Notes under the pieces: generated by a model
The model's database searches: none
What the model saw: the letters and a program-made list of their open reading frames with translations, nothing else
Told to the model about the DNA's origin: nothing
Part shown: positions 2,273 through 26,468 of the stretch, piece after piece
Layout: each line of letters begins with the position of its first letter
Numbering within the stretch: position 1 is the stretch's first letter
Made by a program: the position numbers and the translations under genes
IMG/VR virus record: IMGVR_UViG_3300023272_000011
Coordinates: 1-27,343 of that record
Length of the DNA: 27,343 bases
Reading direction: 5' to 3' (one strand)
DNA from: a virus

Positions 2273-2710
2273 ATGGACGAGACCGAGGACGGGACGCCGG
2301 CTGGCGTCCCAGCGCTGCACCGGGACCCGCTCGGGGACGCGCTCCGCACGAGCCTGACCGCGCTCGAACCGGGCGACCAGGACCAGGCCATGGCCGCGCT
2401 CCTGGCGCTCTACGCCCACGAGTTGGACGGCGCGGCCGCAACGGCCGCGCGCGCGGCCCGGGTGGCGCGTGAGGTGGCCCGGGAGCACGGCCAGGAGTCC
2501 GCGCTGTACGAGCAAGTCCAGGCCCTCCAGGCCGCGCTCAGTCGCCGCCAGGCCTTGGACAGGATCGGCGCCCGGTTCCATGCCGGCCTGGTCGAGATGC
2601 TCGGCACGCCTCGCGCGCGCAGCGCCGGCAAGGCCGGCGCGCCCAGCTCCGGCTCGGGCGGCAACGGCTCCCCACTGGCCAAGCTCCGGCTGGCCTCGGG
2701 TGACGGGTGA
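2273..2710 (+). CDS. Terminase small subunit-like protein (145 aa)
   Basis: It lies immediately upstream of, and overlaps by GTGA, the large terminase at 2707, the usual place for the small subunit that recognises phage DNA for packaging. The sequence is mostly helical: an acidic start, long Ala/Arg-rich helices around residues 35-105, and a disordered Gly/Ser/Ala tail. A strong Shine-Dalgarno sequence (AGGGGAG) sits 5 nt before the ATG. No clear helix-turn-helix is visible, so the assignment rests on position, size and composition. It is unrelated to the HTH protein on the opposite strand at 25992-26468. Confidence 0.6.
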   Translation: MDETEDGTPAGVPALHRDPLGDALRTSLTALEPGDQDQAMAALLALYAHELDGAAATAARAARVAREVAREHGQESALYEQVQALQAALSRRQALDRIGARFHAGLVEMLGTPRARSAGKAGAPSSGSGGNGSPLAKLRLASGDG

Positions 2711-4302
2711 TCCCGTCCCCCGTCGCGCCGGTCGCGCTCCTGGGCTTCACCACGCCCAGGCTCTACCGGCCCCCGCTGGCCAAGGGCCCCCCCGGTCCGT
2801 GCGGCTGTGGCTGCGCGCTCACCGGGCGCACGAGCCGCGGGTACGAGGCCGTCCAGTTCGCCACGGACGTGCTCGGGGTCCAGCTCCTCCCGTGGCAGCG
2901 CTGGTGGCTGATCCATGCCCTGGAGACCGTCCCCGGGGACGGGCCCGGCAGCCGTCGCGGGCGCCGGCTCCGGTTCCGCGTGGTGCTCACCCTGGTGGCC
3001 CGGCAGCAGGGCAAGTCCACATTGCTCATGGTCGTGAGCCTGTATTTCATGGCGCTGCGCTACGCCCGGCTCGTGCTCGGCTCGGCGCAGGCACTCGACA
3101 TCGCGGACGAGTGCTGGCGCGGCGCGCTGGCCATGGTGGAGGACTCCGAGCTGGCCAGCGAGCTCGGCCAGGTCATCCGCGGCAACGGCAAGACGTCATT
3201 TTCGCTGGTCAACGGCGCGCGCTACCGGACGGTGGCGGCGACGCGCTCGGCCGGCCGCGGGCTGCCGGTCGGGCTGCTGCTGCTGGACGAGCTCCGGGAG
3301 CAGCGCGATTGGCTGGCCTGGGGTGCGCTGTCCAAGACCACGATCGCCCAACCCGGCGCGCTGATCCTGCCGACCAGCAACGCGGGCGACGCGGAGTCCG
3401 TGGTGCTCAACTCGCTGCGCGCGCAAGCCCTGGCCGGCGCGGACGACGCGCTCACGCTCATGGAGTGGTCGGCTCCGGACGGATGCGAGCTGGACGACCC
3501 CGAGGCCTGGCGCGCGGCCATGCCGGGCCTCGGGATCACGATCACCGAGGCTGCCGTGCGCTCCGCGCTGGCCACCGATCCGCCCGAAGTCTTCCGCACC
3601 GAGCTCCTGTGCCAGCACGTGGACGTCATGGACTCGGCGATCACGCCCGAGACCTGGCGCGCGTGCGCGGACCCCGGCGGCACCTTGGCCGGCGTGCGGA
3701 ACCGGATCGTCCTGGTACTGGACGTTGCGCCCGACGGTCGGCACGTGACCGCGGTCCTGGCCGCGCCGATCGGCAGTCGCCTGGCCGGCTCCAGTGCGGC
3801 CGCCAGGCTCATGGCCCCGGACGTCCCCCAGGACATGGTCCGGATCGAGGTCGCTGGCGCCTGGGACAGCACGGACGCGGCGATGGCCGCGCTCCCCGGT
3901 CTCGTGGAAGCGATCCGCCCGCGCGCGGTCGGCTGGTACCCGCTCGGGCCCGGCGCCGTCCTGACCGCCGACCTGGAGCGGCTCTATGACTACTCGGACC
4001 CCACCGTCCGGCGCCGCCCCCGCTACGCTCCCGACCTGATGAAGATCTCCGGCGGAGACGTCACCGCCTCGTGCCAAGGCCTGGTGGATATGATCAACAC
4101 GCGCCGCGTGCTACATCCGTCGGATCCGCTGCTGAACAGCCAGGCCATCGGGGCCCAGCGCAAGGACGGCGCGGACGGCGGCTTCCGGTTCGTCCGGGTC
4201 GGGGCCGGTTCGTCCCATGTGGACGCGGTCTACGCCGCGGCCGGCGCGGTCCACATCGCGCGCACGCTCCCGCCGCCCGTCTCCCGACCGATGGTGTACT
4301 GA
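2707..4302 (+). CDS. terL: Terminase large subunit (first copy, 531 aa)
   Basis: This is the ATP-driven DNA packaging motor and nuclease that fills the prohead. Walker A is ARQQGKS at residues 98-104 and Walker B is LLLLDE at 190-195, with E195 the likely catalytic glutamate. The nuclease domain begins at VLVLD (D339), and a late acidic residue is D506 in SSHVDAVY. Length is normal for the family. The GTG start overlaps the TerS-like gene by 4 nt. It is followed by a small membrane gene and the portal, the canonical packaging-head order. The sequence is clearly different from the second large terminase at 23356-24951, so the two are not a recent duplication. Confidence 0.95.
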   Translation: MIPSPVAPVALLGFTTPRLYRPPLAKGPPGPCGCGCALTGRTSRGYEAVQFATDVLGVQLLPWQRWWLIHALETVPGDGPGSRRGRRLRFRVVLTLVARQQGKSTLLMVVSLYFMALRYARLVLGSAQALDIADECWRGALAMVEDSELASELGQVIRGNGKTSFSLVNGARYRTVAATRSAGRGLPVGLLLLDELREQRDWLAWGALSKTTIAQPGALILPTSNAGDAESVVLNSLRAQALAGADDALTLMEWSAPDGCELDDPEAWRAAMPGLGITITEAAVRSALATDPPEVFRTELLCQHVDVMDSAITPETWRACADPGGTLAGVRNRIVLVLDVAPDGRHVTAVLAAPIGSRLAGSSAAARLMAPDVPQDMVRIEVAGAWDSTDAAMAALPGLVEAIRPRAVGWYPLGPGAVLTADLERLYDYSDPTVRRRPRYAPDLMKISGGDVTASCQGLVDMINTRRVLHPSDPLLNSQAIGAQRKDGADGGFRFVRVGAGSSHVDAVYAAAGAVHIARTLPPPVSRPMVY

Positions 4303-4307
4303 TCGCG

Positions 4308-4511
4308 ATGGAAGCCTCCCGCGTTGCCGCCACCGTGGCCCAGATCTGCGCGCTCGTGGCCCTCCTGGCCGGCGTCTACCTCCTGGCCGGCTTGGCCTGG
4401 ACGCTGGTCACGGGCGCGCTCGTGGTCGGCACGCTGTCTGTTCTGATCGAGTACCTGGCCGCCCGTTCACCCCGGCCGCCCGTGGCCCCAGCACCAGGAG
4501 GTGACCGGTAG
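4308..4511 (+). CDS. Small membrane protein between terminase and portal (67 aa)
   Basis: A short charged start is followed by two hydrophobic segments, about residues 8-28 and 30-50, and a Pro-rich tail. Small membrane proteins of this kind often sit between terL and portal in actinophages, with no established role. The ATG at 4308 is 6 nt after the terL stop. The stop TAG shares one base with the GTG of the portal gene, so the two are probably translationally coupled. Confidence 0.75.
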   Translation: MEASRVAATVAQICALVALLAGVYLLAGLAWTLVTGALVVGTLSVLIEYLAARSPRPPVAPAPGGDR

Positions 4512-6688
4512 TGGGCCTCGGAGAGCTGCTGAACCGCGCGCACGTCAACGTCAGCGTGACCACCACGAACGAGGCCGGCGCAATCCTCGGTTCGGACGTG
4601 TTCACGATCACCGACGGGCTCGTGCCCTCGTGGGCCGCCAGCCCGTACCGCGGAGCGATGAACCTCCCCGGGGCGTGGCGGGCGGCCATCATCGCGGCCG
4701 ACCTCCTGGGCTCGTTCCCCTGGGAGGCGTACGAGCGCGGCCCGCTCGGGGTGGACGTCCTGGCCTCGGATCAGCCGCCGCTCCTGACCCAGCCAGCGCC
4801 CCCGGACGCCGGCATCACCACGGTGAGCTCGTTCGGGCTGGACTACATCTGGCACGGGAACGCGGTCGCGCTGAAGGGGCCGCTCACGCCCGAGGGAGAC
4901 GTCTCGGTCCTGGCCCCGGTGCCGATCGCGAACGTGGCCATCGGCCGCAGCAACGGCCACGACCTCGACGGCTTCCGGCGCGGCGAAGTCGGATACCGGA
5001 TCGGGAACCACGTCTACCACGCGGACCAGGTGCTACACCTGAAGGGCCCGTGCGAGCCCGGCGCGCTGCGCGGGCTCGGCGCGCTGGAGGTCCACCTGGC
5101 CGGCTCGCTGCGCACCGCGCTGGAGCTCCAGCGCCAGGCCGGCCAGCTCGACATCTCCGGCGTGCCCACCGGGACCCTGAAGGTCACCGCTCCGGACCTC
5201 ACCGAGGACGAGGCCGCGCTGATCAAGTCCCGGTGGTTGGCGTCGCAGAGCTCGCGCACCGTCGCGGTCCTGAACGACATCACCGAGTTCACCCCGCTAG
5301 CGTGGAATCCGACCGAGACCCAGCTCTTGGAGGCGCGCAAGTTCTCGCTGCACGAGATCGCGCTCATCGTCGGTGTGCCGCTGTACTTCCTCGGGGTCGA
5401 GACCAGCAACCGCACGTATTCCAATGTGGAGCAAGAGGGGATCGTGCTCACGCGCTTCCACCTGGCCGGCGCGATTCGACGGATGGAGGCCGCGTACACC
5501 GGTTGCATGCGGCCCGGCCGTCACGTCCTGGCCGACCTCTCCGACGCGCTGCGCGCGGACACGCTCACCCGTTATCAGGCCTGGCAGATCGGGGCCGCGG
5601 CCGGATTCCTCACTCCGAACGAAATCCGCGCACGCGAGGGACTCGCTCCGATCCCGGGCGGGGACGAGCTCGTGCAGCCGGCGTTGCCCGGCGGTCCGAA
5701 TCCGGCGACCAAGCCGGACACCGGCCCCCCGGAGATCGGGGAGGGTGAGCACGAACAGGGCCGCGTGCTGGACGAGGACGAGCTCGGGCCGGCCGAGTTC
5801 GCGGCCGTGCTGGACGTCTGGTTGGCGGAGGAGACCCGCGCGCGCGGGGGCGGCGACCCGGACGGGTCCAACCTCAAGACGTATTGGACGACCGGCGCTG
5901 GTAGAGCTCGATGGAACTCTTGGACCGAGCTCTACCAGCACTTGCTGAAGCACTTGAGCCCGGACCGCGCCAAGCGCACGGCGTCGCAGTGGTTCCACGA
6001 CGTGAAAGGCTTCTGGCCAGGGGACAAGCGCAACCGGTCCGCCCAGGACGCGTTGTCGCCGGAGCTCCGTGGGCGGCACTCGGCGTACGACCCGGATCAG
6101 CCGCGCTGGCCCGAGGGGACCCCGGGCGTCGCCGGACAGTGGAAGGGCGATGGCGGGAGCCCGCTGGCGCCCAGCAGCGGCGGCGGCCGACACAGGTTCG
6201 AGCCACCGCAGCAGCGCCCGCTGACCGCGAACACGGGGGGAGCGCCGGCCAAGGGGCGGCCGGCGCCGTCGGCCGCGGTCGTGAGCACGCCGAGCCAGAG
6301 CTCGAACTCCGGTGACAGTTCCAGTGACAGCTCCGGTGACGATGTCACCCTGCCCAAGCCTGGAGACGTCGTCGGCCAGGACGCCGAGGGTCGGCCGATC
6401 GTCGTCGGCGTCGACGGCGGCCAGGGAGTACTGCGCCCGGACGTTCCGAAAAGAGACGGATACGGGGGCGGGAAGGACGGGGAACCTCGATACCGGCTGA
6501 ATAAACGGAAGTTCTGCCCCACCTGCGGAGGAAAAGCGCAGGATCCTCAGCCGGAGAACCCCAAGACCAGCACTGGAGTTGTCGACTGGACTTCAGACGG
6601 GGAGCCACTCTACGAACCAGGGTACGAGCCGGAATCCTGCGACGAACCGACGCACGACAAGTCCGATCCGGATTACGAGGCTGATTGA
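4511..6688 (+). CDS. Portal protein with long C-terminal extension (725 aa)
   Basis: The portal forms the dodecameric DNA entry ring of the head. Residues ~1-400 look like HK97-family portal: a typical middle (residues ~190-340) and a distal section with TPNEIRAREGL. The usual length is 400-500 aa, so ~250 extra residues follow. They contain a YWTxGxGxxRW...WFHDVKGFWPGD segment (about 458-500) seen in portal or capsid-maturation proteins of other actinophages. Next come GTPGVAGQW at 536-544, a Ser/Asp-rich linker, and a final part with CPTC (C669, C672) and C710. The last ~180 bases are clearly less GC-rich than the neighbours. The GTG at 4511 has AGGAGGT 8 nt upstream. Confidence 0.9.
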   Translation: MGLGELLNRAHVNVSVTTTNEAGAILGSDVFTITDGLVPSWAASPYRGAMNLPGAWRAAIIAADLLGSFPWEAYERGPLGVDVLASDQPPLLTQPAPPDAGITTVSSFGLDYIWHGNAVALKGPLTPEGDVSVLAPVPIANVAIGRSNGHDLDGFRRGEVGYRIGNHVYHADQVLHLKGPCEPGALRGLGALEVHLAGSLRTALELQRQAGQLDISGVPTGTLKVTAPDLTEDEAALIKSRWLASQSSRTVAVLNDITEFTPLAWNPTETQLLEARKFSLHEIALIVGVPLYFLGVETSNRTYSNVEQEGIVLTRFHLAGAIRRMEAAYTGCMRPGRHVLADLSDALRADTLTRYQAWQIGAAAGFLTPNEIRAREGLAPIPGGDELVQPALPGGPNPATKPDTGPPEIGEGEHEQGRVLDEDELGPAEFAAVLDVWLAEETRARGGGDPDGSNLKTYWTTGAGRARWNSWTELYQHLLKHLSPDRAKRTASQWFHDVKGFWPGDKRNRSAQDALSPELRGRHSAYDPDQPRWPEGTPGVAGQWKGDGGSPLAPSSGGGRHRFEPPQQRPLTANTGGAPAKGRPAPSAAVVSTPSQSSNSGDSSSDSSGDDVTLPKPGDVVGQDAEGRPIVVGVDGGQGVLRPDVPKRDGYGGGKDGEPRYRLNKRKFCPTCGGKAQDPQPENPKTSTGVVDWTSDGEPLYEPGYEPESCDEPTHDKSDPDYEAD

Positions 6689-7566
6689 TGGACATCGTCC
6701 CGCGAAAGCGCTGGGGAGCCAGGTTCTCGGCCGGTTTCGGGCCGGCGCCCCGGGCGACAGAGCTCTGGCTGCACCACTCGGTGACCAAGAGCGCCGGCCC
6801 GGACGTGACCGCGGCCCAGGACGCGGTCACGGTCCGGGACCTGGAGAAGATCGGCCAGGACCGGTTCGGCGGCGGGGTGTCGTACACGTTCGTCGTGTGC
6901 GAGTCCGGCCGCGTGCACGAGGGCACCGGGCCCGGCCGGAAGGGCGCGCACACGGGCGGGCGCAACTCGGTGGCCCGTGCGATCTGCCTCCTGGGCGACT
7001 ACAGCACCCGGCGTCCGACCGACGCGCAGATCGTGGCCGTGGCGGAGCTCGTGCGCCACGGCCACGCGGTCGGATGGTGGACGGTGGACCGGCTCACCGG
7101 CGGGCACCGGAACGCGCCCGGCGCAGCCACGTCGTGCCCCGGCAACGCCGCGTACGCGCTGATCCCAGTGATCAATTCCAAGGCCACGACCGCCCACCTG
7201 GCCGACGATCTGGAGGACGAGATGAACGCTGAAGACCGTGACCGGTTTGCCCGGCTGGAGGCCGGGGTGACGATCATCCTCCAGCAGTTGGTCGGTCCCG
7301 GCGCCACGATCGCCGAGCCGTGGCCCGGCCCCGAGCGCGGCGGTGGCTGGCCCACGTTCCGCTACGGCGACGAGGGCCGGACCAGGCTCACGCTCGTGGA
7401 CTACCTCCGCGAGCTGGACCGGGAGCACCGATCCAGCTTCCTGGTCGCCGACGCTCCCACGGACGACCGCTACCCGACCACCCTCGTGGGCCACACCCTG
7501 GCCGTGCGCGCGCTGGCGCTCCAGCTGGAGCAACTGATCGTGAACCTGGGAGGCCGCACCCGATGA
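6688..7566 (+). CDS. Endolysin: N-acetylmuramoyl-L-alanine amidase (292 aa)
   Basis: This is predicted to cut the amide bond between peptidoglycan glycan and stem peptide. Residues ~1-165 match the Amidase_2/PGRP fold: a histidine pair in LWLHHS (H29/H30), then GHRNAPGAATSCPG with H140 and C150, giving the family's zinc ligands. The C-terminal ~120 residues are helical and charged, with no recognised cell-wall binding motif. The ATG at 6688 overlaps the portal stop by one base. An in-frame TTG one codon earlier is less likely. The location between portal and protease is unusual for an endolysin; most actinophages keep it after the tail genes or in a separate lysis cassette. Confidence 0.9.
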   Translation: MDIVPRKRWGARFSAGFGPAPRATELWLHHSVTKSAGPDVTAAQDAVTVRDLEKIGQDRFGGGVSYTFVVCESGRVHEGTGPGRKGAHTGGRNSVARAICLLGDYSTRRPTDAQIVAVAELVRHGHAVGWWTVDRLTGGHRNAPGAATSCPGNAAYALIPVINSKATTAHLADDLEDEMNAEDRDRFARLEAGVTIILQQLVGPGATIAEPWPGPERGGGWPTFRYGDEGRTRLTLVDYLRELDREHRSSFLVADAPTDDRYPTTLVGHTLAVRALALQLEQLIVNLGGRTR

Positions 7567-8261
7567 GCACCGGGACTGACGAACTGGAGCAGGACGAGGA
7601 CCGGGAGGACTACGCCCCTGACGGCGTCCACGACCGCACCGACCAGGAGCGGTGGGCGGGGGTCGAAGTCCGCGGGTACGTAGAGCCCGACCTGGAGATC
7701 CTGCCGCGGTCCAAGGGTGGAGACGGGCGCACGATCACCGGGATCCTGGTCCCGTTCGGTCGCGCCCAGCGGATCCACGAGGGCCTCGTGGAGCAGTTCC
7801 GCACCGGCGCCGCAGACCACCAGTTGGCCCGGCCGGCGATGATGAAGTTCGCCCGCGAACACCTGAAGCTGGGCGGGACCCTGATCGGTCGCGCGCACGA
7901 GCTCCGCAACGACGCGTCCGGGCTCTGGGGCGCGCTGCGCGCCAGCAAGACCACGGCCGGGGACGAGGCCGTCACCCTGGTGGAGGACGGCGCGCTGGAC
8001 GAGTTGTCGATCGGCTTCCGGGCGGTGCGGTCGCGCCGACTCCCGGACGGCACGGTGGAACGGGTCCGGGTGGATGTCCTGGAGACCGCGCTCGTGCTCC
8101 AGGGCGCCTACGGGAAGGGCGCGCGCGTTACCGGGCTCCGGTCCGCCAGCGGGGCGCAGAGCCACGCACAGGGCATGTCCGTGGCTCTGGCGCGTGCGCA
8201 GGCAGCCGCGCTCACGATCACTCCGGCCACGGCCGCCGCTCTCCGGGACTTGATCCGCTAG
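7563..8261 (+). CDS. Prohead (capsid maturation) protease, S78-like (232 aa)
   Basis: This is predicted to cleave the capsid delta domain during head maturation. It has the family pattern: a GILVPFG strand near residue 60, a likely catalytic histidine H100 followed by GTLIGRAHEL, and DELSIGF with catalytic serine S149. The first ~35 residues are acidic and the last ~60 are Ala-rich. The ATG overlaps the amidase stop (ATGA). Its position just before the capsid gene supports the call. Confidence 0.92.
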   Translation: MSTGTDELEQDEDREDYAPDGVHDRTDQERWAGVEVRGYVEPDLEILPRSKGGDGRTITGILVPFGRAQRIHEGLVEQFRTGAADHQLARPAMMKFAREHLKLGGTLIGRAHELRNDASGLWGALRASKTTAGDEAVTLVEDGALDELSIGFRAVRSRRLPDGTVERVRVDVLETALVLQGAYGKGARVTGLRSASGAQSHAQGMSVALARAQAAALTITPATAAALRDLIR

Positions 8262-8409
8262 CATCCGAGCTACACGCACCACGCAGTACCCGGCCATCCA
8301 GGCCGGCCGGCGCAGTACGCCGCGCGCTCCCCACGTGGCGTCATCCCGGTCGGTCCTGCGCGGCGCCCGGTCATCTGGTGAGCAGCACACACCGACGACC
8401 GGAGGACAC
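8262..8409 (+). promoter_or_regulatory. Protease-capsid intergenic region with small hairpin and repeats
   Basis: This 148-bp gap is among the longest in the structural cluster. It contains an 8-bp direct repeat, CGCAGTAC (8282-8289 and 8311-8318), flanking a 6-bp hairpin (CCGGCC 8290-8295, GGCCGG 8301-8306). A TANNNT-like TAGCAT overlaps the protease stop (8259-8264). These could give the capsid gene separate transcription or mRNA stability, but no convincing -35/-10 pair is visible. The capsid Shine-Dalgarno sequence GGAGG is at the right end. Confidence 0.35.
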
Positions 8410-9762
8410 ATGTCCCGCGCGCGGCTGGCCCAGCTCCAGTCCATCTATACCGAGAACCACGCCGGCCTGACCGCGGTCCTGGACCGGGCGGCCACCGAGA
8501 ACCGGGCCCAGCTCACCGAGGCCGAAGAGACCCAGGTGACCGCGTTCCGCGCGGAGCTGGCCCGCGTCGGGCCCGAGCTGGAAGACCTGGTCTCCACCGA
8601 GTCCCGCTCCCGCCAGATGGCCGACCTCCTGGCCGAGGTGAGCGACGGCACGGACGCCGACGACGGCAGCACAGGAACCGGCGAGACCCGCGGCACCGCG
8701 ACCGGCACCGGCCGGTTCACCACTCAGGACCGGGATCCCGGCCACTACCGGTCGGCGAAGGAGGGCGGTACGCACTCCTTCTTCCACGACATGGTCTACA
8801 GCCGTCCCGACGTGGCCGACGACGTCGACGCCCGGACCCGGCTGCACGAGCACCAGCGCGCACTGTCCACCGGCGTGGCCGGCGCCGGCATCGTCCCGCC
8901 CAAGTGGCTGACCGACGAGTACGCCCCGCTGGCGCGCCAGGAGCGCATGCTGGCCAACGCCGTGCGCCACATCGACCTCGGGGACGACCCGCGGCCGATG
9001 ACGCTCCCGCACCAGACCACGGGCACCGATGCCGTGGTCGCGGAGCAGGCGTCGGAGAACACGCACCCGTCCGAGACGGACGCGTTCGCGACCAGCACGG
9101 TCACGGTCACGCCCAAGCCGACCAGCGGCATCCAGGTCGTGTCCCGGCAGATGATCGACATGACCACCCCGGCCGTGGACGAGCTGATCTACGGGGACAT
9201 GCTGGCGGTCTACGACACCAAGGTGGAGGCCGCCGTAGCAGCGGCCATGGTCACCGCTGCTGGCGCGGCAACGGTGACGTTCGCGACCAACACGCTGTGG
9301 GCCGCGAACAACGGCAAGGACGCGCTCGACGCCGTGATCGATACTGAGTTTGCGGTCTACTCCGGTCGCAAGCTCCCCCCGGACTTGATCATCATGCGCA
9401 TTCCGCGCTGGGGCCGGTTCCGCAAGCTCCGCGACACCACCGGTCGGAGCCTGATCCCGCCGGAGTTCGCGCGCCAGCAGATGGTCAACGTGAACGGCGT
9501 CGGCACGATCGCTGCCCGTGGCCAGGTCGAAGACCTGGCCGTGGTCCCGACCGAGGGACTCGGCACGGTCGCCGTGCTGGAGAACATCCTGATCGCTCGT
9601 GCGCGCGACACCATCCTGTTCGAGGGCGCCGTGCAGCGCTTCCGGTTCGAAGAGGTGGCCGGCCCCGAGTCGATCAAGCTCGGAATCTGGGCGTACACCG
9701 CCGTGAACGTGCGCTACGACACCTCGGTGGAGCGCATCCAGATCACGAGCTCCACCACCTGA
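8410..9762 (+). CDS. Major capsid protein, HK97 family (450 aa)
   Basis: This is the shell protein of the head. The N-terminal ~110 residues are a charged helical delta/scaffold domain (LAQLQSIYTENHAGL onward) followed by a Gly/Thr-rich linker, where the protease probably cuts. The rest has HK97-fold features: GAGIVPPKW near the start of the mature region, long beta segments, PDLIIMRIPRWGRFRKL, and a beta-rich end with TVAVLENILIARARD. The ATG at 8410 has GGAGG 4 nt upstream. An in-frame ATG at 8335 is rejected because it has no ribosome site. Protease before and connector after fit the usual order. Confidence 0.93.
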   Translation: MSRARLAQLQSIYTENHAGLTAVLDRAATENRAQLTEAEETQVTAFRAELARVGPELEDLVSTESRSRQMADLLAEVSDGTDADDGSTGTGETRGTATGTGRFTTQDRDPGHYRSAKEGGTHSFFHDMVYSRPDVADDVDARTRLHEHQRALSTGVAGAGIVPPKWLTDEYAPLARQERMLANAVRHIDLGDDPRPMTLPHQTTGTDAVVAEQASENTHPSETDAFATSTVTVTPKPTSGIQVVSRQMIDMTTPAVDELIYGDMLAVYDTKVEAAVAAAMVTAAGAATVTFATNTLWAANNGKDALDAVIDTEFAVYSGRKLPPDLIIMRIPRWGRFRKLRDTTGRSLIPPEFARQQMVNVNGVGTIAARGQVEDLAVVPTEGLGTVAVLENILIARARDTILFEGAVQRFRFEEVAGPESIKLGIWAYTAVNVRYDTSVERIQITSSTT

Positions 9763-9764
9763 TC

Positions 9765-10938: not shown

Positions 10939-10939
10939 C

Positions 10940-11293: not shown

Positions 11294-11312
11294 AAGCACT
11301 GGGAGTGCCGCA

Positions 11313-11845: not shown

Positions 11846-11856
11846 GAGGGGGAGCG

Positions 11857-18459: not shown

Positions 18460-18479
18460 TCACCTGAGAGGATCACACC

Positions 18480-18869: not shown

Positions 18870-18882
18870 TCGGAGCGCCACC

Positions 18883-19593
18883 GTGCCGCAGACCAACCGC
18901 TGGGGTCTCACCTACCCGACCGAGAACGATCCCGTTCTCGTGTGGCTGGACATCCAGACCTTGGCCGAGAACGCCGAGGCCGCGCTCGGGCGTGCGTTCC
19001 CGGTCGCGGACGAGGCCGCTCGGACCGCGCTCGGGGTCGCGCTCGGAGCGCCCGGAGCCGGCTTCCTCGTGCTCCAGGTGGACACCGGTCAGCCGTACAT
19101 GTGGCTCGGGGCGACCTGGCTGGCCGTCGGCGGCGGAGGCGGTGGAGGGGGCGGGGATGGCGCGCTCCCGTCGCTCGGGCGCTGGGGCGGAACCGCGGCC
19201 CAGGCGATCCCGAACGCGGACGCCACGGTCGTCTCGTTCCCTACCGAGATCACGGCCACCCCGGACATCACCCGGGAGACGGCCAGTCCGGGGCACAAGT
19301 TCGTGCTCCAGCGCGCCGGCCGGCTCTCCGGCTCGCTCGTGATCCGCTACGCCACGACCACGGCCGCGGGCGTCCGGGACGTCCACGTCCTGGCCAACGG
19401 CACCCAGTACCTCGGCTCCAGCGGTGGCGCGGTCGCCGGCCAGCCGGCCACGCACTCGGTGGCCATCGAACCGGTGGACCTGGCCGAGGACGCCGAGATC
19501 ACGGTGGAGGCCTTCCAGGGGACCGGGAGCACGCGCACCCTGGAGCCCGGCGCCGGCTCCCGCTGGGTGCGGCTGACGCTGGAGCTCCGATGA
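18883..19593 (+). CDS. Minor tail/fibre protein with glycine linker (236 aa)
   Basis: The N-terminus (TNRWGLTYPTENDPV) resembles the start of many tail fibre proteins that attach to the baseplate. A helix with Ala/Leu follows, then a run of nine glycines at about residues 83-91. The C-terminal ~130 residues are a beta-sandwich reminiscent of C1q/TNF-like fibre tips (GHKFVLQRAGRLSGSLVIRYATT). GTG start, 13 nt after the upstream gene. The end overlaps the next gene by ATGA. Confidence 0.75.
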   Translation: MPQTNRWGLTYPTENDPVLVWLDIQTLAENAEAALGRAFPVADEAARTALGVALGAPGAGFLVLQVDTGQPYMWLGATWLAVGGGGGGGGGDGALPSLGRWGGTAAQAIPNADATVVSFPTEITATPDITRETASPGHKFVLQRAGRLSGSLVIRYATTTAAGVRDVHVLANGTQYLGSSGGAVAGQPATHSVAIEPVDLAEDAEITVEAFQGTGSTRTLEPGAGSRWVRLTLELR

Positions 19594-20003
19594 CCGCCCC
19601 GACGTACACCCTCCGGGACCGCCTCCCCGTGATCGACGTAGAGGCTCAGGCCGGGCGCGAGATCACGATCAGCGTGCCCGTGCTCGGCGCGGGCGGTGGG
19701 GGCGTCGACGTGGCCGGCCTCGTGCACGTGCGCGCACAGGTTCGGCTCCGGTGGGACTCCGATCTCGTGCTGCACGCGTGGGATGACGTGCTCGGCAACG
19801 CCACCCTGGAGGGCACCCCGGGCGGCACCGACGCGGCCGCCGTGGTGACCGCCACCGACGCCGAGACCACGATCTGGGGCATGTCCTGGCCGCGGCTGGC
19901 CGTGTTCTGGGATATCGAGGTGGAGGACACCGGGGGCGAGATCCACCCGTTGTGCACCGCCTCCCCGTTCGCGCTGCTCCCCGAGATCACCCGACCCACG
20001 TAG
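19590..20003 (+). CDS. Minor tail/virion protein (137 aa)
   Basis: It is beta-rich throughout with a short Gly run (GAGGGGVDVAG), strands VRAQVRLRWDSDLVLHAWD and RLAVFWDIEVEDTGGE, and one cysteine near the end. No specific family is recognised. It overlaps the fibre-like gene upstream by ATGA and is probably a co-translated virion component. Confidence 0.7.
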   Translation: MTAPTYTLRDRLPVIDVEAQAGREITISVPVLGAGGGGVDVAGLVHVRAQVRLRWDSDLVLHAWDDVLGNATLEGTPGGTDAAAVVTATDAETTIWGMSWPRLAVFWDIEVEDTGGEIHPLCTASPFALLPEITRPT

Positions 20004-20013
20004 GAGACCGCCC

Positions 20014-20427
20014 GTGCTCACCCTCACCGACGCCATCCGCAACGCGCGTGTTCAGGCCATCACGAACGCGTTCAACGATGGTCCGGGTGCCGGCACCATC
20101 CAGATCAGGTCCGGCACCCGGCCAGCCACCCCGACGACCACGGCAACCGGGACGCTCCTGGCGACCGTGACCCTGGTCGATCCCGCGTTCGGGTCCGCGA
20201 CCGCGGGCGTGGCCACGATCGCCGACCCGGCCGGCGTCACGGCGGCGGCCACCGGAACGGCCAGCTGGTTCCGCGGATTCGACTCGACCGGCGCGGCCGT
20301 GTGCGACGGTTCGGTCACGGCCACCGGCGGCGGTGGCGACCTGACCCTGGCCTCCACCTCGGTGGTGAGCGGGACGACCGTGGACATCACCGGCGGCACG
20401 TTCACCGATCCCCAGGGCACCCCGTAA
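20014..20427 (+). CDS. Minor tail protein, small beta repeat type (137 aa)
   Basis: Sequences of this type (LTDAIRNARVQAITNAFNDG, IQIRSGTRP..., GTLLATVTLVDPAFG, a WFRGFDS strand, and a final GGDLTLASTSVVSGTTVDI) recur in many phage structural gene clusters, usually as small virion proteins of unknown exact role. The GTG start has GGAG about 9 nt upstream. Confidence 0.78.
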   Translation: MLTLTDAIRNARVQAITNAFNDGPGAGTIQIRSGTRPATPTTTATGTLLATVTLVDPAFGSATAGVATIADPAGVTAAATGTASWFRGFDSTGAAVCDGSVTATGGGGDLTLASTSVVSGTTVDITGGTFTDPQGTP

Positions 20428-20480
20428 CCGTTCCGTTATCAATTCGAGAACGGCCCTGACCAGAACCGGGAGGTGAGCTC
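20428..20480 (+). promoter_or_regulatory. AT-richer gap with short hairpin
   Basis: This 53-bp gap is AT-richer than its surroundings. It carries a 6-bp inverted repeat, CCGTTC (20428-20433) and GAACGG (20448-20453), starting right after the stop codon, and a Shine-Dalgarno sequence GGGAGG for the next gene. The stem is short, so a terminator or promoter call is weak. Confidence 0.25.
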
Positions 20481-21659
20481 GTGACGGTCTCTGTCGTCGA
20501 CACGGCGACCGCAGCGCCGACCGCGGGCGTCACCACGTTCGCGGCCAGCCTGGTCGGGGCCACGGCCCCGAACGCCCTGCTCTGGATCCTCGGCGGGGAC
20601 AAGAACTCTGGCACGATCACGCAACCGACCGACACGCCGACCATGCCGATCGTGCTCAAGGGCACGAGCACCGCCGGTCCGGCCGATCAGGTGACCATCG
20701 CCCTGGCCCACGGCACCGCCGACGGTGGCGAGACCACGATCTCCGGAACGGTCGGCGCCAACATCGCAGGTGGCCAGCTCTGGGTTGCAGAGCTGGCCGA
20801 CAACGTCGGAACCGGCGCCTGGGCGCGCTGGGGCACGGTCACGAACGAGACCGACGGCGCAGACGTCACCTCGGTGGCTCTGACCGGCCTGGCCGCCACG
20901 GAGACCGGCCTGGCCGTGGCCGCGGTTGCGTCGGACTCGGTGAACACCCAGGGCACGGTGTCGTGGACGTCCAGCACCGGGCACACCTTCACCGTCCGCC
21001 GGTCCACGGCCTCGGGCGGCGGCCAGGCCGGCCTGTGGATCGCCACGGCCCCGGTCACCCAGGGCGACACGGTGTCGGTCACGTTCGCGCGCGCGGGCGG
21101 CACCGCCGACCAGCACTCCGGGTTCATGACCGTGTTCGCGCGCACGGTCGCCAGCGCGAACACCGGCGTCATGGCCGGAGCGGCCCGCCCAGCGACCGGG
21201 GCGCTCACCGGGACCGAGACCACGAGCGGCACCATGGCCGGCGCAGCCACGGTCGCGACGGGCGCCCTGACGGCCACACAGCGCACGACCGGCTTCCTGG
21301 CCGCCGTGGCCCGCCCGGCCACCGGGGACGCGGCAGCGGCCCTCGTGGACCCGGCAACGCTGGCCGGAACGAGCCCGGTCCCGGTCGGCAACTTGACCGG
21401 GACCCAGTCCACCCCCGGCGCGTTCGCCGCGCAGGCGCCCCGCGCGACCGGTCAGCTCACCGGGCAACTCGTGTTCCCGGTCATCGAAGGCGAGTTCGCC
21501 GCGCTGGCCGCGGTCGCGGTCGGGAACATCACCCAGGTGCCGGCGCCGCCCACAGATCTCCCGCTGCGCGCGGGTGAACCGTCCCTGACCGCCACCTGGC
21601 GCGCCGGCTCGCCAGCGATCGCGACCGGCTGGCGAGCCGGCGCCCCGGAGGTTCGATGA
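20481..21659 (+). CDS. Repeat-built minor tail/fibre protein (392 aa)
   Basis: Residues ~1-225 are a beta-rich domain (VGATAPNALLWILGGD..., VSWTSSTGHTFTVRRS, then TVSVTFARAGGTADQHSG) like virion surface domains. Residues 230-334 contain five tandem 21-residue units with a core ARPATGALTGT. The last 30 residues contain an 11-residue repeat, RAG[ES]P..TATW (at 363, 374 and 385). Such repeats usually form fibres or stalks. The gene uses a GTG start after GGGAGG. Its last ~60 bases contain a 16-bp hairpin, and it overlaps the next gene by ATGA. Confidence 0.75.
   Translation: MTVSVVDTATAAPTAGVTTFAASLVGATAPNALLWILGGDKNSGTITQPTDTPTMPIVLKGTSTAGPADQVTIALAHGTADGGETTISGTVGANIAGGQLWVAELADNVGTGAWARWGTVTNETDGADVTSVALTGLAATETGLAVAAVASDSVNTQGTVSWTSSTGHTFTVRRSTASGGGQAGLWIATAPVTQGDTVSVTFARAGGTADQHSGFMTVFARTVASANTGVMAGAARPATGALTGTETTSGTMAGAATVATGALTATQRTTGFLAAVARPATGDAAAALVDPATLAGTSPVPVGNLTGTQSTPGAFAAQAPRATGQLTGQLVFPVIEGEFAALAAVAVGNITQVPAPPTDLPLRAGEPSLTATWRAGSPAIATGWRAGAPEVR
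21601..21643 (+). terminator. Intragenic 16-bp hairpin at the end of the tail operon
   Basis: Positions 21601-21616 and 21628-21643 are perfect 16-bp inverted arms with an 11-nt loop, inside the end of the 392-aa gene and 13 nt before the next start. It is partly a by-product of the 11-residue repeat at that place, but the perfection is striking. It could attenuate transcription between tail and membrane genes or affect translation of the ATGA-coupled gene. Confidence 0.5.
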
Positions 21660-21976
21660 TCTGGCCGTGGTTCCTGGTGGACCCCATCATCCCGGCCGAG
21701 GTCGCGGACGTGCTCCGGGTGCTGTCCATGCTCGGATCCCTCACGCTCCTGGTCGCCGCGTGTTACGCCATGGTCGTGAGCCGCTACCGTGACCAGCGCG
21801 TCCGATTTGGACTGTTCGCAGCGTTCTCCGTGATGCTCACGGCCGGGAGCCTGGTCAACCTCGGCCAGGCCGCGGCCTGGCGGCTCGGGGTGCTGCCAGT
21901 GCTGGTCGCCCTGGCCGTCTGGTCCACGATCGCGTACGTACGGCGGGAGCTGGGGGAGCGGCGCCATGGACGGTAG
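21656..21976 (+). CDS. Membrane protein (106 aa)
   Basis: Three likely transmembrane segments lie at about residues 20-42, 51-70 and 75-95, separated by an Arg-rich loop (VSRYRDQRVRFG), with a basic C-terminal tail. It overlaps the repeat-built tail gene by ATGA. Small three-segment membrane proteins like this are frequent after actinophage tail genes. A lysis role (holin) is possible but unproven. Confidence 0.8.
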   Translation: MIWPWFLVDPIIPAEVADVLRVLSMLGSLTLLVAACYAMVVSRYRDQRVRFGLFAAFSVMLTAGSLVNLGQAAAWRLGVLPVLVALAVWSTIAYVRRELGERRHGR

Positions 21977-21987
21977 GAGGCTCACCG

Positions 21988-22305
21988 GTGATCCTGGATG
22001 GCGCGACGCTCGGAGTGATCTTCCAAGGGCTGGCGACGCTGGCGGTCGCGCTCGGGCTCACAGCCGCGGGGCGGAGCCGGCGCGCGGCTGTGGACCGGGG
22101 CGAGCACCGAACGCTCCAGCGGGAAAACCAGGCATGGGCGACGCACGGTCATCTGCTGGAGTCACGGCTGGCGGGAGCCGGATTGCCGGTTCCCGCGCGC
22201 CCGAGGATCCTGGAGGCTCGCTACGGCCCTGCACTGAGTGGGGCCGGAGGTGGTGACGATGGTGCCGACGGCGATTCCGCGGCCTCGTCCGCGGTCGGCT
22301 CGTGA
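21988..22305 (+). CDS. Membrane-anchored small protein (105 aa)
   Basis: One hydrophobic segment (about residues 7-27) is followed by a charged helix and a disordered Gly/Asp/Ser tail. The GTG has AGGAGG 7 nt upstream. Its last 47 bases overlap the next gene in another frame. Function unknown; together with its neighbours it forms a cluster of small membrane proteins. Confidence 0.65.
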   Translation: MILDGATLGVIFQGLATLAVALGLTAAGRSRRAAVDRGEHRTLQRENQAWATHGHLLESRLAGAGLPVPARPRILEARYGPALSGAGGGDDGADGDSAASSAVGS

Positions 22306-22603
22306 TCCAGCCCGTCCGCTCGGCGCCTGGCTGCCGGTGCTGCTGGTAGCGGCCGGCGTGCTGCTCTCGCTCCTGGGCTGGGCGACCGCGGCCAGGGTGG
22401 ACGCGGCCCTGGAGAGCGCCCAGCGCAGCGCGACATCCGCGGCCGTCGAGATGCGCGCCGCCGACCTGGCCGGCAACCGACTCGAACGCGCCCAGGACCA
22501 GCGCGACGGGCTGCGCGCGCTGGTCCTGTACCGGTGCGACACCGGAGTGATCACCGACGCCCAGCTCTGCGACGCGGCCCGCGCGATCGTGCCCGCCCGG
22601 TGA
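22259..22603 (+). CDS. Single-pass membrane protein with extracytoplasmic helix and two Cys (114 aa)
   Basis: The start at 22259 is chosen because GGAGG lies 8 nt upstream; in-frame GTGs at 22238, 22250 and 22253 are less well placed. A basic Pro/Arg-rich start is followed by one transmembrane segment (about residues 24-45), a long charged helix, and two cysteines near the end (CDTGVITDAQLC). The layout is similar to inner spanins, but actinophage hosts differ from Gram-negatives, so this is only an analogy. It overlaps the gene before by 47 nt and the one after by GTGA. Confidence 0.7.
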   Translation: MVPTAIPRPRPRSARDPARPLGAWLPVLLVAAGVLLSLLGWATAARVDAALESAQRSATSAAVEMRAADLAGNRLERAQDQRDGLRALVLYRCDTGVITDAQLCDAARAIVPAR

Positions 22604-23001
22604 GCGGAGAGACCGAGGGGGACGTCTCCGGGTGGACCGTGGACACCCTGCACGCGCACGTGGCGCGCCGGCTGACCGACCTGGACCGGCTGCTGAACGA
22701 GCGGAAGGCCGCCCAGGAGACCGCGCTGAGCGCGGCGCTGGTCGGCCAGGAGAAGGCCGTGGACAAGGCCCTGACCGCGATCAACGAGCGGCTGTACGTG
22801 CTGAACGAGCTACGCGGCGACGTGGCGACCAAGACCGCGCTGGAGGCCCTGGAGAAGGAGCTGGCCGCGCTCACGTCCCGACTCGACCGCACCGAGGGCC
22901 GCGGGGCCGGCCTGAACGCCGGCTGGGTGTACCTCCTGGCCGGCATCGCAGCGATCGGAACGGTCGTGTCCATCTTCTTGGCCATGCGCGGTGGCGCGTA
23001 G
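22600..23001 (+). CDS. Coiled-coil protein with C-terminal transmembrane segment (133 aa)
   Basis: A long helical part (about residues 12-105, with KAVDKALTAINERLYVLNELRGDV) has coiled-coil character, followed by LDRTEGRGAG and one membrane segment (about 110-130). This layout, including the RxEG motif before the final helix, is seen in a widespread family of small actinophage membrane proteins of unknown function. GTGA overlap with the upstream gene. Confidence 0.78.
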   Translation: MSGETEGDVSGWTVDTLHAHVARRLTDLDRLLNERKAAQETALSAALVGQEKAVDKALTAINERLYVLNELRGDVATKTALEALEKELAALTSRLDRTEGRGAGLNAGWVYLLAGIAAIGTVVSIFLAMRGGA

Positions 23002-23012
23002 CCTCCCAGGTC

Positions 23013-23174
23013 ATGACCATCGTCGTGTTCGTGCTCGTGCTGCTGGCGCTCGTGGCCTTCCTCGTGGGCGCCGTCCTCGCGCACCGCACCCGGGACACCC
23101 CGACCATGGCCATGTGCCTCGGCCTGGCCCTGTGGGTGGCCTCGGTGCTCATCCAGGCGTTCCCGGTCGGCTAA
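23013..23174 (+). CDS. Small two-helix membrane protein, holin-like (53 aa)
   Basis: Two transmembrane segments (about residues 2-26 and 34-52) are joined by a short RTRDTP loop. It is the last + strand gene, and its stop TAA (23172-23174) overlaps the stop of the - strand gene. No strong Shine-Dalgarno sequence is visible (CCCAGG, weak). A holin-like topology is all that can be said. Confidence 0.65.
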   Translation: MTIVVFVLVLLALVAFLVGAVLAHRTRDTPTMAMCLGLALWVASVLIQAFPVG

Positions 23175-23359
23175 CGCCAGCCCGTGATCCAGCCGGCCAG
23201 GAGCACGGCCGTCGGCACGATCGCGAACAGGATCACGACCCCGAGCGCGACCGTTCGACGCCGTCGGCCGTCGAACACCATCCCGAGCCCGGCCACGAGC
23301 ATGACCGCGCACTGGACGAGAACGGCCAGGACGCCCAGAACGATCGTCACGACGTTCAC
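23171..23359 (-). CDS. Small two-helix membrane protein at the end of the reverse operon (62 aa)
   Basis: Two hydrophobic segments (about residues 3-29 and 38-58) are separated by an Arg cluster (FDGRRRRT). The GTG start overlaps the stop of the second large terminase (GTGA), so translation is coupled. The stop overlaps that of the opposite-strand 53-aa gene. The two are topologically alike but not obviously related in sequence. Role unknown; holin-like proteins next to terminases are known in some phages. Confidence 0.7.
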   Translation of the reverse strand: MNVVTIVLGVLAVLVQCAVMLVAGLGMVFDGRRRRTVALGVVILFAIVPTAVLLAGWITGWR

Positions 23360-24951
23360 GCCACGGCCGCGTAATCGGCCGGGTTGACCACCCGGTAGAC
23401 CGGGCGGCCGGCCGCCGTCGTGCGGTGCGGGTTGCGGAGGTACTCCACCCCACCTGCGACGGTGTCCATCAGGTCATCGTGCGGGACGTGCGGGTAGCGG
23501 ATCATCTGCCGCTCCAGCTCCGGGAAGATCTTGGCGTGCACGATCTCTTTCCGTTCGTAGCGCCCCTCCAGCGTGTGGAACCGGTCGCGCTTGGGCTCGA
23601 ACGCGCGGTAGAGCACGAGCCGCACCGACGCCGGCCACGGGTCGCGCCCGTCCACCCGCGGGCGGAGCAGGATCTCCGCCCAGTCCCCACCCGCGTTCTC
23701 CTCCAGCACCACCGTGGTCACGTGCTCGTTCTCGGCCAGCATGCGCACGAGCCACGACCGCAGCTGCGAACCGGTGACGCGCCGGCCGCGGACGTACTGG
23801 AGCACGGCCACGCCCGGCCGCCCGATCGCGTGCCCGAGCACGCACACGGCCGTCTCGTCCGAGGTGGCCGTGACCGTGACCGCCGGGTCCACGTGCACGA
23901 TGTCGCCGGTGCTCGGCCAGCGCCGGTAGCGGAAGGTGTGCGCCGTCCAGTGCTCCCCACCGGGCTCGGGCGGCTGGCCGGCGTAGTTCAGCGCGTAGTT
24001 CCCGGGCTCGGACTGCTGAAGGTCCTGGAGCCACTCCAGCGGCCAGGAGGCCGGCCAGAGCGAGCGTTCCCCGATCGGCTCCCCGTCCTCGGTCACGCCG
24101 GCCGGGATGATCGCCGGGTAGTACCGCGGCCGGAAGCCCATTCCGGTGATCCAGGCCGCTGGCGGGCCGTCCCCGATCGCGGCCCGGACCACTTCGTGGG
24201 AGAGCGATCCCCAGCCGACCACGGTCCCGAACATCTGCACGACGGCCCTCGGGTTCATCGGGACGACCACGTTCTGGATCTTCTCCAGTCGCACCGTGCG
24301 CTCCCGCTCGGTCTGGCCGTCGCTCTCGACGTCGTCCAGGATCACCAGATCGGGCCGGCCCCCGGCCACCTTCAGCCCCAGGTCGGACGTGCCCATGGAC
24401 CTGGCCGTCACCGACTGCCCGTGCTGGCCGACGATCTGGAACACGGTGTCGACCGTGCCCCGGACGCGCCGGTCCGGCACGAGCTCCGGGTAGTCCTCCC
24501 GCAAGAGGTCGTTGCGCTCCAGCTGGCGGCGCAGGTCGCCCATGTGCGTCCTGATCTGGTCGTTCGTGTCCGAGTACAGCAGCACGGTCCGGCGCCAGCG
24601 GTGCGCCAGCGCCCAGAGCACGCACCCGAGCGCCCACGTCGACTTGGCCGCTCCGCGGGGCGCCACCCACGCGTCCCGGTAGGGCACGGCCTGATCGGTC
24701 CAACGCAGCGCGGAACGGGCCATGTCCACGTGCAGCCGGCTCATGCTCATGATCCCGCCCGTGTTCGGGCCGCGGAGCAGCTCCGACAGGTAGACCAGCA
24801 TGAACCGGAGCACGTTCCTGCGCGTGATGTCGCGCCGGTAGTCCGCATCCAGCGTGTAGAGCGGCTGCCAGCTCCCGCGCACGATCCTGCCCGCGGCCAG
24901 CGGCCCCAAGAGTGCATCGCGGTCCACCGTCCGCGGGAGCTGGATCTCCAC
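23356..24951 (-). CDS. Second large terminase-like ATPase/nuclease (531 aa)
   Basis: This is a complete packaging-motor protein of a different lineage from the one at 2707-4302. Walker A is APRGAAKST at residues 97-105 and Walker B is VILDDVE at 203-209. The nuclease domain starts with VHVDP (D355), and HDDLMD near the end carries D492/D493, the usual late acidic pair. Nothing is broken and the length is standard. GTG start sharing one base with the upstream TAG. It lies at the end of an overlapping operon led by an HTH protein, so this looks like an independent terS-terL unit. Alternatives are a nuclease with another role or a terminase from an integrated or satellite element. Confidence 0.9.
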   Translation of the reverse strand: MEIQLPRTVDRDALLGPLAAGRIVRGSWQPLYTLDADYRRDITRRNVLRFMLVYLSELLRGPNTGGIMSMSRLHVDMARSALRWTDQAVPYRDAWVAPRGAAKSTWALGCVLWALAHRWRRTVLLYSDTNDQIRTHMGDLRRQLERNDLLREDYPELVPDRRVRGTVDTVFQIVGQHGQSVTARSMGTSDLGLKVAGGRPDLVILDDVESDGQTERERTVRLEKIQNVVVPMNPRAVVQMFGTVVGWGSLSHEVVRAAIGDGPPAAWITGMGFRPRYYPAIIPAGVTEDGEPIGERSLWPASWPLEWLQDLQQSEPGNYALNYAGQPPEPGGEHWTAHTFRYRRWPSTGDIVHVDPAVTVTATSDETAVCVLGHAIGRPGVAVLQYVRGRRVTGSQLRSWLVRMLAENEHVTTVVLEENAGGDWAEILLRPRVDGRDPWPASVRLVLYRAFEPKRDRFHTLEGRYERKEIVHAKIFPELERQMIRYPHVPHDDLMDTVAGGVEYLRNPHRTTAAGRPVYRVVNPADYAAVA

Positions 24952-25169
24952 TACGCCCCCCGTCCCTCGTCCCAGGATCGGAACCGGTACGCGGCCGGGA
25001 CCGCTTCCGTGAGCGACACGCCCGCAGGACTGCCCACGAGCGCGGCCAGGGTTCGCGCGTGCTCCAGGCCGGTCCGGAGCACGGCCAGAGAGCGAGCCGA
25101 CGGGCCGGTATCGGTCGGGCCCAGGTTCAGCACGTCTGCTAGATGCTCCAGCGCCTCGTCCGCGGTCAT
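24951..25169 (-). CDS. Hypothetical protein (72 aa)
   Basis: A small, mostly helical acidic protein (TADEALEHLADVLNL, then SLAVLRTGLEHARTLAALV) without Cys or membrane segments. The ATG overlaps the upstream stop (ATGA), and its stop shares one base with the terminase start. Tight coupling to the second large terminase suggests a partner or assembly role, but no family is recognised. Confidence 0.7.
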   Translation of the reverse strand: MTADEALEHLADVLNLGPTDTGPSARSLAVLRTGLEHARTLAALVGSPAGVSLTEAVPAAYRFRSWDEGRGA

Positions 25170-25570
25170 CCTGCGCACCGGAGCACGCACGCGGCCGGGC
25201 TCACGATCGTGGTCGGATCCAGCGCCCTGGCTCGTGGCGCCGTGCAGGTCACGCACACGGCCTGAACCTCGGGCCGGTGCGTGCCGGAGTCCTCCGAGCT
25301 CCACAGCGCCAACGCCCAGACGTGCCCGAGCGGCTGACGGTCCTCGGCCGGGAACCACACCGTGAACTCTCGGCCGTACAGATCACCCGCGACCCGGCGC
25401 CGGCCGGCCGTGTCCGCCTGCACGAGCGCGGACAGGGGCAGCAGTCGGGCGAGCTCCCAACTGAGCAGGACCGGGCCGGGCTCGGGCGCCAGCGGGACCT
25501 CTCCGCGCGGGACTACGGGCTGGCCCAGGATCCGCTCCAGGCTGTCCAGGAACTCCCGGAACGCGCTCAT
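25166..25570 (-). CDS. Hypothetical protein with C-terminal CxxC tail (134 aa)
   Basis: No family recognised. The N-terminal part has a helix (AFREFLDSLERILGQPV), the middle is beta-rich (REFTVWFPAEDRQPLGHVWALALW), and the C-terminus has CVTCTAPRA followed by two more cysteines (AACVLRC). The CxTCT stretch also ends the neighbouring 142-aa protein, so the two may share a zinc-binding tail. ATGA overlaps on both sides. Confidence 0.7.
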   Translation of the reverse strand: MSAFREFLDSLERILGQPVVPRGEVPLAPEPGPVLLSWELARLLPLSALVQADTAGRRRVAGDLYGREFTVWFPAEDRQPLGHVWALALWSSEDSGTHRPEVQAVCVTCTAPRARALDPTTIVSPAACVLRCAG

Positions 25571-25995
25571 CGTGCACGCTCCAGGCACTCCGCGGCCAGG
25601 ACCGGCTCCGCGGCACGACGCGTGCAGGTGATGCACATGAGCCGGCCGCTCACCCCAGCCGCGTGCGGGCCGTCCGGTCCGCCCGTACCCCATGCATGCC
25701 CCGCGGGCGGGTCCATGACCGCGCGCGCGTCCTCCGGCGTGCCCTGGCCGACCATGGCCCGGATCGTGACCTGCGCGGCCTCCAGGTCTGCCTCCAGACC
25801 GGCGACCTTCTTCCGCCACATGCCCGCGGCCGCGTTCGACGCGCCCAGGACGTCGCGCATGGCCTTGGCCGCGCGCTCTCCACCCATGCGCGCGCGCTCG
25901 ATCAGGAACGGCTCCGTCACGGACCGCACCATGTTCATGATGGCGTCCGCCAGCCTCGCGCCCGTGACTTCGTTCTCGTCCTTGCTCTCGCTCAC
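25567..25995 (-). CDS. Hypothetical helical protein with C-terminal CxxC tail (142 aa)
   Basis: The GTG overlaps the stop of the HTH gene (GTGA). The first ~95 residues are helical with a likely coiled coil (KKVAGLEADLEAAQVTIRAMV). A loop rich in Gly/Pro/His follows, then CITCTRRA and a last cysteine. The tail matches the CxTCT tail of the next gene. No function known. Its place directly after the HTH protein hints at a DNA-packaging partner or scaffold. Confidence 0.7.
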   Translation of the reverse strand: MSESKDENEVTGARLADAIMNMVRSVTEPFLIERARMGGERAAKAMRDVLGASNAAAGMWRKKVAGLEADLEAAQVTIRAMVGQGTPEDARAVMDPPAGHAWGTGGPDGPHAAGVSGRLMCITCTRRAAEPVLAAECLERAR

Positions 25996-26468
25996 TGCCC
26001 CAGCTCCCGCCGTGTCTCCGCCTCGTCCAGAGCTGAAGCTCTGGCCGCTTCCTCTCGCATCGCCGCGATCAGGGCCGGATCCGGCGGACGCCGGTCGTCC
26101 TCGGTCGCGACCCGAACGGGGGCGTAGTTGCCCTCCACCCGGTTGATTTCGCTCACCACGCGCATGAGCGCGGGAACGACCTTCTCGTACGGTTGCGGCT
26201 CGATGTCGCGCTCGGGGTCGCCCTCCAGCGCGGTCACCCCGCGCCGCGCCAGCTCGTTCAAGAACTCGACCATGCGCGCGCGCCGGCCGGCCCGCTCCGC
26301 GACCTCGGACCACTCCGCGGCCTGGCGATACTCCTCGATCCACCGGCGCACCGTGGTGTGGCTGACGCCGAGTTCCTGCGCGATCTCCCGGGAGGACCAG
26401 CGCTGGCCGTGCAGCTGGTACGCGCGCACGACGTTGGCCGCCCGCTCCGCGTCCTGGTCCGGCCCCAC
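25992..26468 (-). CDS. HTH protein, probable small terminase subunit of the second module (158 aa)
   Basis: Residues ~24-46 form a clear helix-turn-helix (WSSREIAQELGVSHTTVRRWI) of the type found in phage small terminase subunits and resolvase/transposase-like binders. The remainder is helical with EKVVPALMRVVSEINRVEGNYAPVRV, similar to the central region of actinophage TerS proteins, then an acidic tail. GTG start with GGAAGG 9 nt upstream. It heads an overlapping set ending in the large terminase at 23356. It could also be a transcription regulator of its own operon; the C-terminal half argues for TerS. Confidence 0.7.
   Translation of the reverse strand: MGPDQDAERAANVVRAYQLHGQRWSSREIAQELGVSHTTVRRWIEEYRQAAEWSEVAERAGRRARMVEFLNELARRGVTALEGDPERDIEPQPYEKVVPALMRVVSEINRVEGNYAPVRVATEDDRRPPDPALIAAMREEAARASALDEAETRRELGQ

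Follow-up and report, generated by a model that had tools for sequence, protein, structure and literature searches.

A complete second terminase without a portal of its own recurs in uncultured tailed phages and may serve an auxiliary role

In tailed phages, one genome with one terminase is the working rule. The uncultured viral contig analysed here, IMG/VR record IMGVR_UViG_3300023272_000011, is a linear fragment of 27,343 bp; the whole record was studied and is referred to below as the window. A standard late module occupies its plus strand, with genes for a candidate small terminase subunit (TerS1), a large terminase subunit (TerL1), a portal and an amidase, as well as other genes for the head, tape measure and tail. 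The minus strand encodes, in the 5' to 3' direction, a helix-turn-helix (HTH) protein that we name TerS2, three small open reading frames (ORFs), a second large subunit (TerL2) and a 62-aa membrane-like ORF. TerL2 has neither a neighbouring nor a dedicated portal. We lean towards the view that TerS2 and TerL2 form a working second terminase, kept by selection in a soil phage lineage beside the terminase that fills the phage's own heads, and that it has an auxiliary role. What is new is that such an extra, portal-less terminase is present in at least 15 other uncultured phages, an indication that this well-known machine has a function not yet described.

Results and Discussion

Two complete and unrelated large terminases

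TerL1 (positions 2707 to 4302, plus strand) belongs to PHROG 9 (4e-65) and adjoins the portal gene (4511 to 6688, plus strand; PF04860, 1.5e-43; PHROG 12, 1.4e-43), the only portal found. TerL2 (23356 to 24951, minus strand) belongs to PHROG 38, as judged both from the profile match (7e-58) and from its position on a branch of its own inside the family tree; its match to PF17289 was weak and under the cut-off of that family. A BLASTP comparison of the two proteins revealed no significant similarity (best E 0.36), in agreement with the original prediction that the contig encodes two intact and unrelated large terminases. As described there, TerL2 has a Walker A motif (APRGAAKST), a Walker B motif (VILDDVE) and the nuclease residues D355 and D492/D493, to which E417 can be added as the third nuclease residue. 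These motif residues are conserved throughout the family. Indeed, D355, E417, D492/D493 and Walker B are invariant in an alignment of TerL2 with the main terminases of Microbacterium and Streptomyces phages and the terminase of the satellite MiniFlayer, to which TerL2 is 27-34% identical. Across the 20 portal-less TerL2s described below, K103, D355 and D492/D493 are invariant, and D206/D207 and E417 are each conserved in at least 90%. AKS replaces GKS in Walker A of some portal-less TerL2s and of some portal-adjacent relatives. The idea that this alanine marks an inactivated ATPase was rejected, since the portal-adjacent relatives L132 and L179 have the identical AKS.

The AlphaFold model of TerL2 (predicted local distance difference test, pLDDT, 87.7) has the two-domain fold of a terminase, with an ATPase and a nuclease. 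A structural comparison had been proposed as a way to expose the second protein as something other than a terminase; instead, the model matched full terminases in the PDB over both domains, the top matches being the Avs3-bound PhiV-1 terminase (8dgc), T4 gp17 and the D6E terminase (best E 5e-20). TerL1 of the window is also intact; its residues K103, D194/E195, D339 and D506 are all present.

Recurrence of TerL2 and the missing portal

Among the viral contigs scanned, a search with TerL1 recruited a contig of 51.9 kb (G006) that also encodes a TerL2 homologue, and two further scans with TerL2 alignments yielded more than 100 family members. Most of these directly precede a portal gene, whereas 20, including the one in the window, do not; in the window, TerL2 is followed by the 62-aa ORF and then by the convergent late operon. 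A separate main TerL is present in 16 of these 20 contigs, including the window. It belongs to PHROG 9 in the window, G006, G073, G099, G120-G124 and G126-G129, and to PHROG 2 in G081, G118 and G125. It should be noted that the count of 16 omits G116 and G117, which end within the portal region so that the place of TerL1 lies off the contig, as well as G119 and G130. The main portals encoded beside TerL2 belong to PHROG 12, PHROG 104, PHROG 2662 and other types; PHROG 104 lineages have a main portal that is a distant relative of the usual partners of PHROG 38 terminases. Apart from the main portals, no portal of the type that works with PHROG 38 terminases was found, and the idea of such a second portal elsewhere in the genome was rejected.

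The splitting of the tape measure gene of G006 and of the main TerL gene of G118 across the contig ends suggests that these two genomes are nearly complete and circularly permuted. A search of 19 of the contigs for tyrosine integrases was negative, serine integrases being outside its scope, and 396 actinobacterial species genomes contained no close match to TerL2 except for one portal-adjacent TerL. Both results argue against a prophage origin, and they suggest that the two-terminase phages are virulent or that their hosts are unsampled. In tblastn searches with three portal-less TerL2s, no portal-less match was present among the matches listed, the best ones being main terminases at the starts of isolate genomes.

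The late module and the TerL2 unit are linked in more than one contig. G116 and G117, which come from other samples, carry the late genes of the window in the same order (30-79% identity), followed by convergent genes for TerL2 and TerS2 (37-39%). The overlap with a near-identical contig, G001, is confined to the left part of the window and does not reach this junction. Since two relatives repeat the junction, an assembly join at 23171-23174 is very unlikely on sequence grounds. The earlier argument against such a join was thereby strengthened, and the prospect that the two modules would never occur together in related genomes did not hold, given the 16 contigs with both a main TerL and TerL2.

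Evolution and selection

A maximum-likelihood tree of 71 rows placed the 20 portal-less TerL2s on one side of a branch and 51 portal-adjacent terminases on the other, with a bootstrap value of 100 that was not fully settled and a support of 96 in the Shimodaira-Hasegawa-like approximate likelihood-ratio test. In a first tree with 81 rows, which included five portal-less TerL2s, this support was 99/92. The trees contain long branches, and their rooting and detail are unsure. As far as such trees can tell, the portal-less TerL2s are an old and diversified branch. The suggestion that the module was captured from another phage can thus be retained in a deep sense only, in that the TerL2 family provides the main terminase elsewhere; a recent capture does not fit with the age and diversity of the branch. 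Despite deep divergence, the portal-less TerL2s have kept their catalytic residues, their TerS2 partner and a location close to the 3' end of the gene run that faces the late operon. In addition, 55 alignment columns are conserved in the portal-less and portal-adjacent sets alike, and set-specific changes are few.

For the sister pair G116/G117, omega was 0.18 for both TerL2 and TerS2, which is comparable to the values of structural genes. Several neighbouring genes had values of 0.35-1.3. One fast-evolving gene of this pair, located between TerS2 and TerL2 (L226:3718-4998 in G116), encodes a 427-aa protein without a Pfam match and showed an omega of 0.80.

The small subunit and the TerS2-TerL2 unit

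The HTH protein (25992 to 26468, minus strand) matches PHROG 645 (7e-9), a family labelled 'RNase E'. In most of the tested genomes with portal-adjacent terminases, a PHROG 645 gene is located just upstream of the PHROG 38 TerL, and gene 4 of phage Isperia, a member of PHROG 645, is annotated as a terminase small subunit. The label is therefore likely an annotation error, and the family behaves as the TerS of PHROG 38 phages. In Foldseek, the TerS2 model by itself had no significant match; alignment of the model with the TerS proteins of G20c and P74-26 gave Z-scores of 8.4 and 7.3, respectively, with most of the length aligned, values that are middling for helical proteins. The name TerS2 was chosen because of the position of PHROG 645 genes upstream of PHROG 38 terminases and this TerS-like model alignment. 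As in other small subunits, an N-terminal HTH is combined with a helical part, and the gene lies upstream of that for TerL.

Profile hidden Markov model searches detected TerS2 upstream of TerL2, in the same orientation, in 15 of the 20 portal-less contigs. In G118, G119, G129 and G130 the two genes are overlapping or immediately adjacent, and in G127 an HTH gene directly upstream of TerL2 looks like another TerS2. In 15 of the 20 contigs, TerL2 is followed by 0-4 genes in its own strand run, and in 12 of 15 it is encoded on the strand opposite to the main TerL. A search for pac or cos candidates around TerS2 turned up nothing beyond weak repeats, and no site was identified. The TerS1 candidate (145 aa; 2273 to 2710, plus strand) had zero matches in the profile libraries; homologues are present upstream of TerL1-type genes in G006 (48%), L008 and L016. 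Each large subunit thus has its own small-subunit candidate, as had been proposed.

A strong intrinsic terminator (26532 to 26565, minus strand; 15-bp stem and T-rich tail; fold z -3.9) is located just upstream of the HTH gene, and the TerS2-TerL2 unit is for this reason apparently transcribed separately. In G006, TerL2 adjoins a Prim-Pol gene. Another two-terminase phage, G126, encodes a TROVE/Ro60 RNA-binding protein (L246:2005-3690; TROVE 1e-46, Ro60 vWA 2e-57) a few genes upstream of TerL2.

Proposed role and alternatives

From their position, the TerS2 and TerL2 genes would be expressed with the early and middle genes, ahead of and independently of TerL1. By analogy with other members of their families, TerS2 would choose a DNA site, and TerL2 would cut and/or pump the selected DNA through ATP hydrolysis. 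TerL2 may well start cleavage or packaging on a DNA or site that is unserved by TerL1. The portals used would be ones that are already in the cell, either those of the phage itself or ones supplied by co-infecting phages or satellites for which PHROG 38 provides the native terminase. Several findings weigh against a selected second terminase of this kind. Well-measured selection is limited to one sister pair; other TerL2 pairs have omega values of about 0.47, and other TerS2 pairs have values from 0.57 to about 1, at higher divergence. Moreover, the portals that accompany TerL2 come from several unrelated families, which speaks against a docking partner that co-evolved with it inside the phage.

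The two sources of portals represent two arms of this best explanation. It is possible, if doubtful, that TerS2 and TerL2 act as a back-up to TerL1 and fill the phage's proheads with its own genome, either from a second pac or cos site or under other conditions. This would agree with the retention of both the ATPase and the nuclease residues, with the single portal per genome, and with the distant relationship between the main portal of the PHROG 104 lineages and the usual PHROG 38 partners. However, docking would have to be broad to accommodate several unrelated portal families, and the TerL2 gene stands apart from the late operon. That TerL2 instead targets co-infecting PHROG 38-type phages or satellites, docking on their portals or cutting their DNA, and so blocks or parasitises their packaging appears rather unlikely. 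PHROG 38 is the native terminase family of actinophages, MiniFlayer and MulchRoom (PMC10690885), TerL2 is placed with early genes and lacks a portal of its own, and the 55 shared columns with few set-specific changes are also in favour of this arm; on the other hand, the divergence of TerS2 from canonical TerS is too great for shared site recognition to be shown. The corresponding picture, an early, portal-less TerS-TerL pair that commandeers foreign portals or cuts foreign DNA, would amount to packaging-level competition by a full terminase rather than by a small inhibitor, and we consider it only tentatively.

Outside these two arms, TerS2 could guide a nuclease and ATPase that acts without any portal in replication, in concatemer resolution, or in the breakdown of host or competitor DNA. 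The absence of a portal, the early or middle gene placement, the conserved nuclease residues and the Prim-Pol gene beside the G006 TerL2 would be consistent with this. Yet a TerS and a translocation ATPase are retained, which is beyond the needs of a nuclease, and to our knowledge there is no precedent for a portal-free DNA-processing role of a TerL, so that we judge this improbable as well. The top structural neighbour of TerL2 is a terminase captured by Avs3, which identifies terminases as ligands of defence systems. An early TerL2 might accordingly be imagined to engage or titrate a TerL-sensing system of the Avs/AVAST type before TerL1 is made. A decoy would need neither catalytic residues nor TerS2, both of which are conserved, and this option is highly improbable. 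We give almost no credence to a captured, non-functional module or an assembly chimera. The window is indeed a fragment, but 16 contigs hold both modules and the same junction is present in G116 and G117; the single tree branch, the purifying selection and the intact motifs also speak against this reading, and the omega values weigh against a loss of function.

Relation to known systems

The portal-adjacent terminases of the Microbacterium phages Isperia and OscarSo and the Streptomyces phages Yara and Wentworth are homologous to TerL2 (30-34% identity) and have the same catalytic residues, and their genomes also carry a PHROG 645-type TerS, as the TerL2 unit does. In these phages the PHROG 38 protein is the main TerL, encoded just before the portal, whereas in the window it is a second, portal-less TerL that is far from the late packaging genes and belongs to a separate branch. 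The terminases of the satellites MiniFlayer and MulchRoom are from the same family (27-31% identity). In these satellites, as in capsid-forming phage-inducible chromosomal islands (cf-PICIs), a second terminase acts in the cell beside that of the helper. Such satellites encode a portal and a capsid together with their own terminase (PMC10690885), while TerL2 is located inside a phage genome with a complete late module. Satellites and cf-PICIs lack part of the virion genes and need a helper; by contrast, a head and tail module is present on the window contig. Split TerLs or tandem homologues have also been reported (PMC10773633, PMC11512304, PMC11510935, PMC11273794). Like the window, phiPDS1, vB_G30_01, vB_EfS_SE and XaC1/XbC2 have two TerL annotations per genome, but these represent one split TerL or neighbouring or tandem homologues, whereas the two TerLs of the window are complete, unrelated, about 19 kb apart and on opposite strands. 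In the literature covered, from which subscription papers were mostly absent, we came across no description of a genome with two complete and unrelated terminases of which the second is portal-less.

TerL is a widely used single-copy marker for the classification of tailed phages. A recurrent and selected second terminase breaks the one-terminase rule, and marker-gene counts and trees may pick the wrong gene. Likewise, predictions of the genome end type from one TerL may mislead when a second terminase is present. Should TerL2 work on foreign portals or DNA, this would be an undescribed form of conflict between phages or between phages and satellites; should it use the phage's own portal, then portals would accept unrelated motors.

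Main terminases and other features of the window

Several main TerLs of the two-terminase contigs appear degenerate, with a GKDP Walker A, NET or TES in Walker B, and a loss of nuclease aspartates in G121, G127 and G129. A decay of TerL1 with TerL2 taking over was nevertheless rejected, as single-terminase control phages share these apparent defects: Lannister and Footloose have the same GKDP Walker A, and their Walker B likewise lacks the aspartate. The first nuclease aspartate is retained in 85 of 98 single-terminase relatives versus 12 of 15 main TerLs in two-terminase contigs, and the last one in 49 of 98 versus 8 of 15. The main TerLs of G121, G127 and G129 lack both the first and the last aspartate; the last is absent from about half of the single-terminase relatives. 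GKDP in Walker A and NET or AET replacing the DE of Walker B characterise a large actinophage TerL subfamily (G099, G120, G122, Lannister L330 and Footloose L329), and these non-canonical ATPase motifs occur in single-terminase isolates too.

All ORFs named in the original prediction were found where it had placed them. Between TerS2 and TerL2, the minus strand encodes ORFs of 142 aa (25567 to 25995) and 134 aa (25166 to 25570), both without a family match, and of 72 aa (24951 to 25169). The 62-aa membrane-like ORF (23171 to 23359, minus strand) is the final gene of the TerL2 operon and overlaps the convergent late operon by 4 bp. The near-identical contig G001 (L024) continues the window sequence for at least 967 bp further to the left, and this part (L024:1-967) contains an HNH-like ORF and a stretch of alternating purines and pyrimidines directly before window position 1. 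Lastly, an amidase/endolysin gene (6688-7566) is located inside the head operon right after the portal gene, as is also the case in G006, and the amidase/endolysin gene of Isperia is likewise found near head genes.

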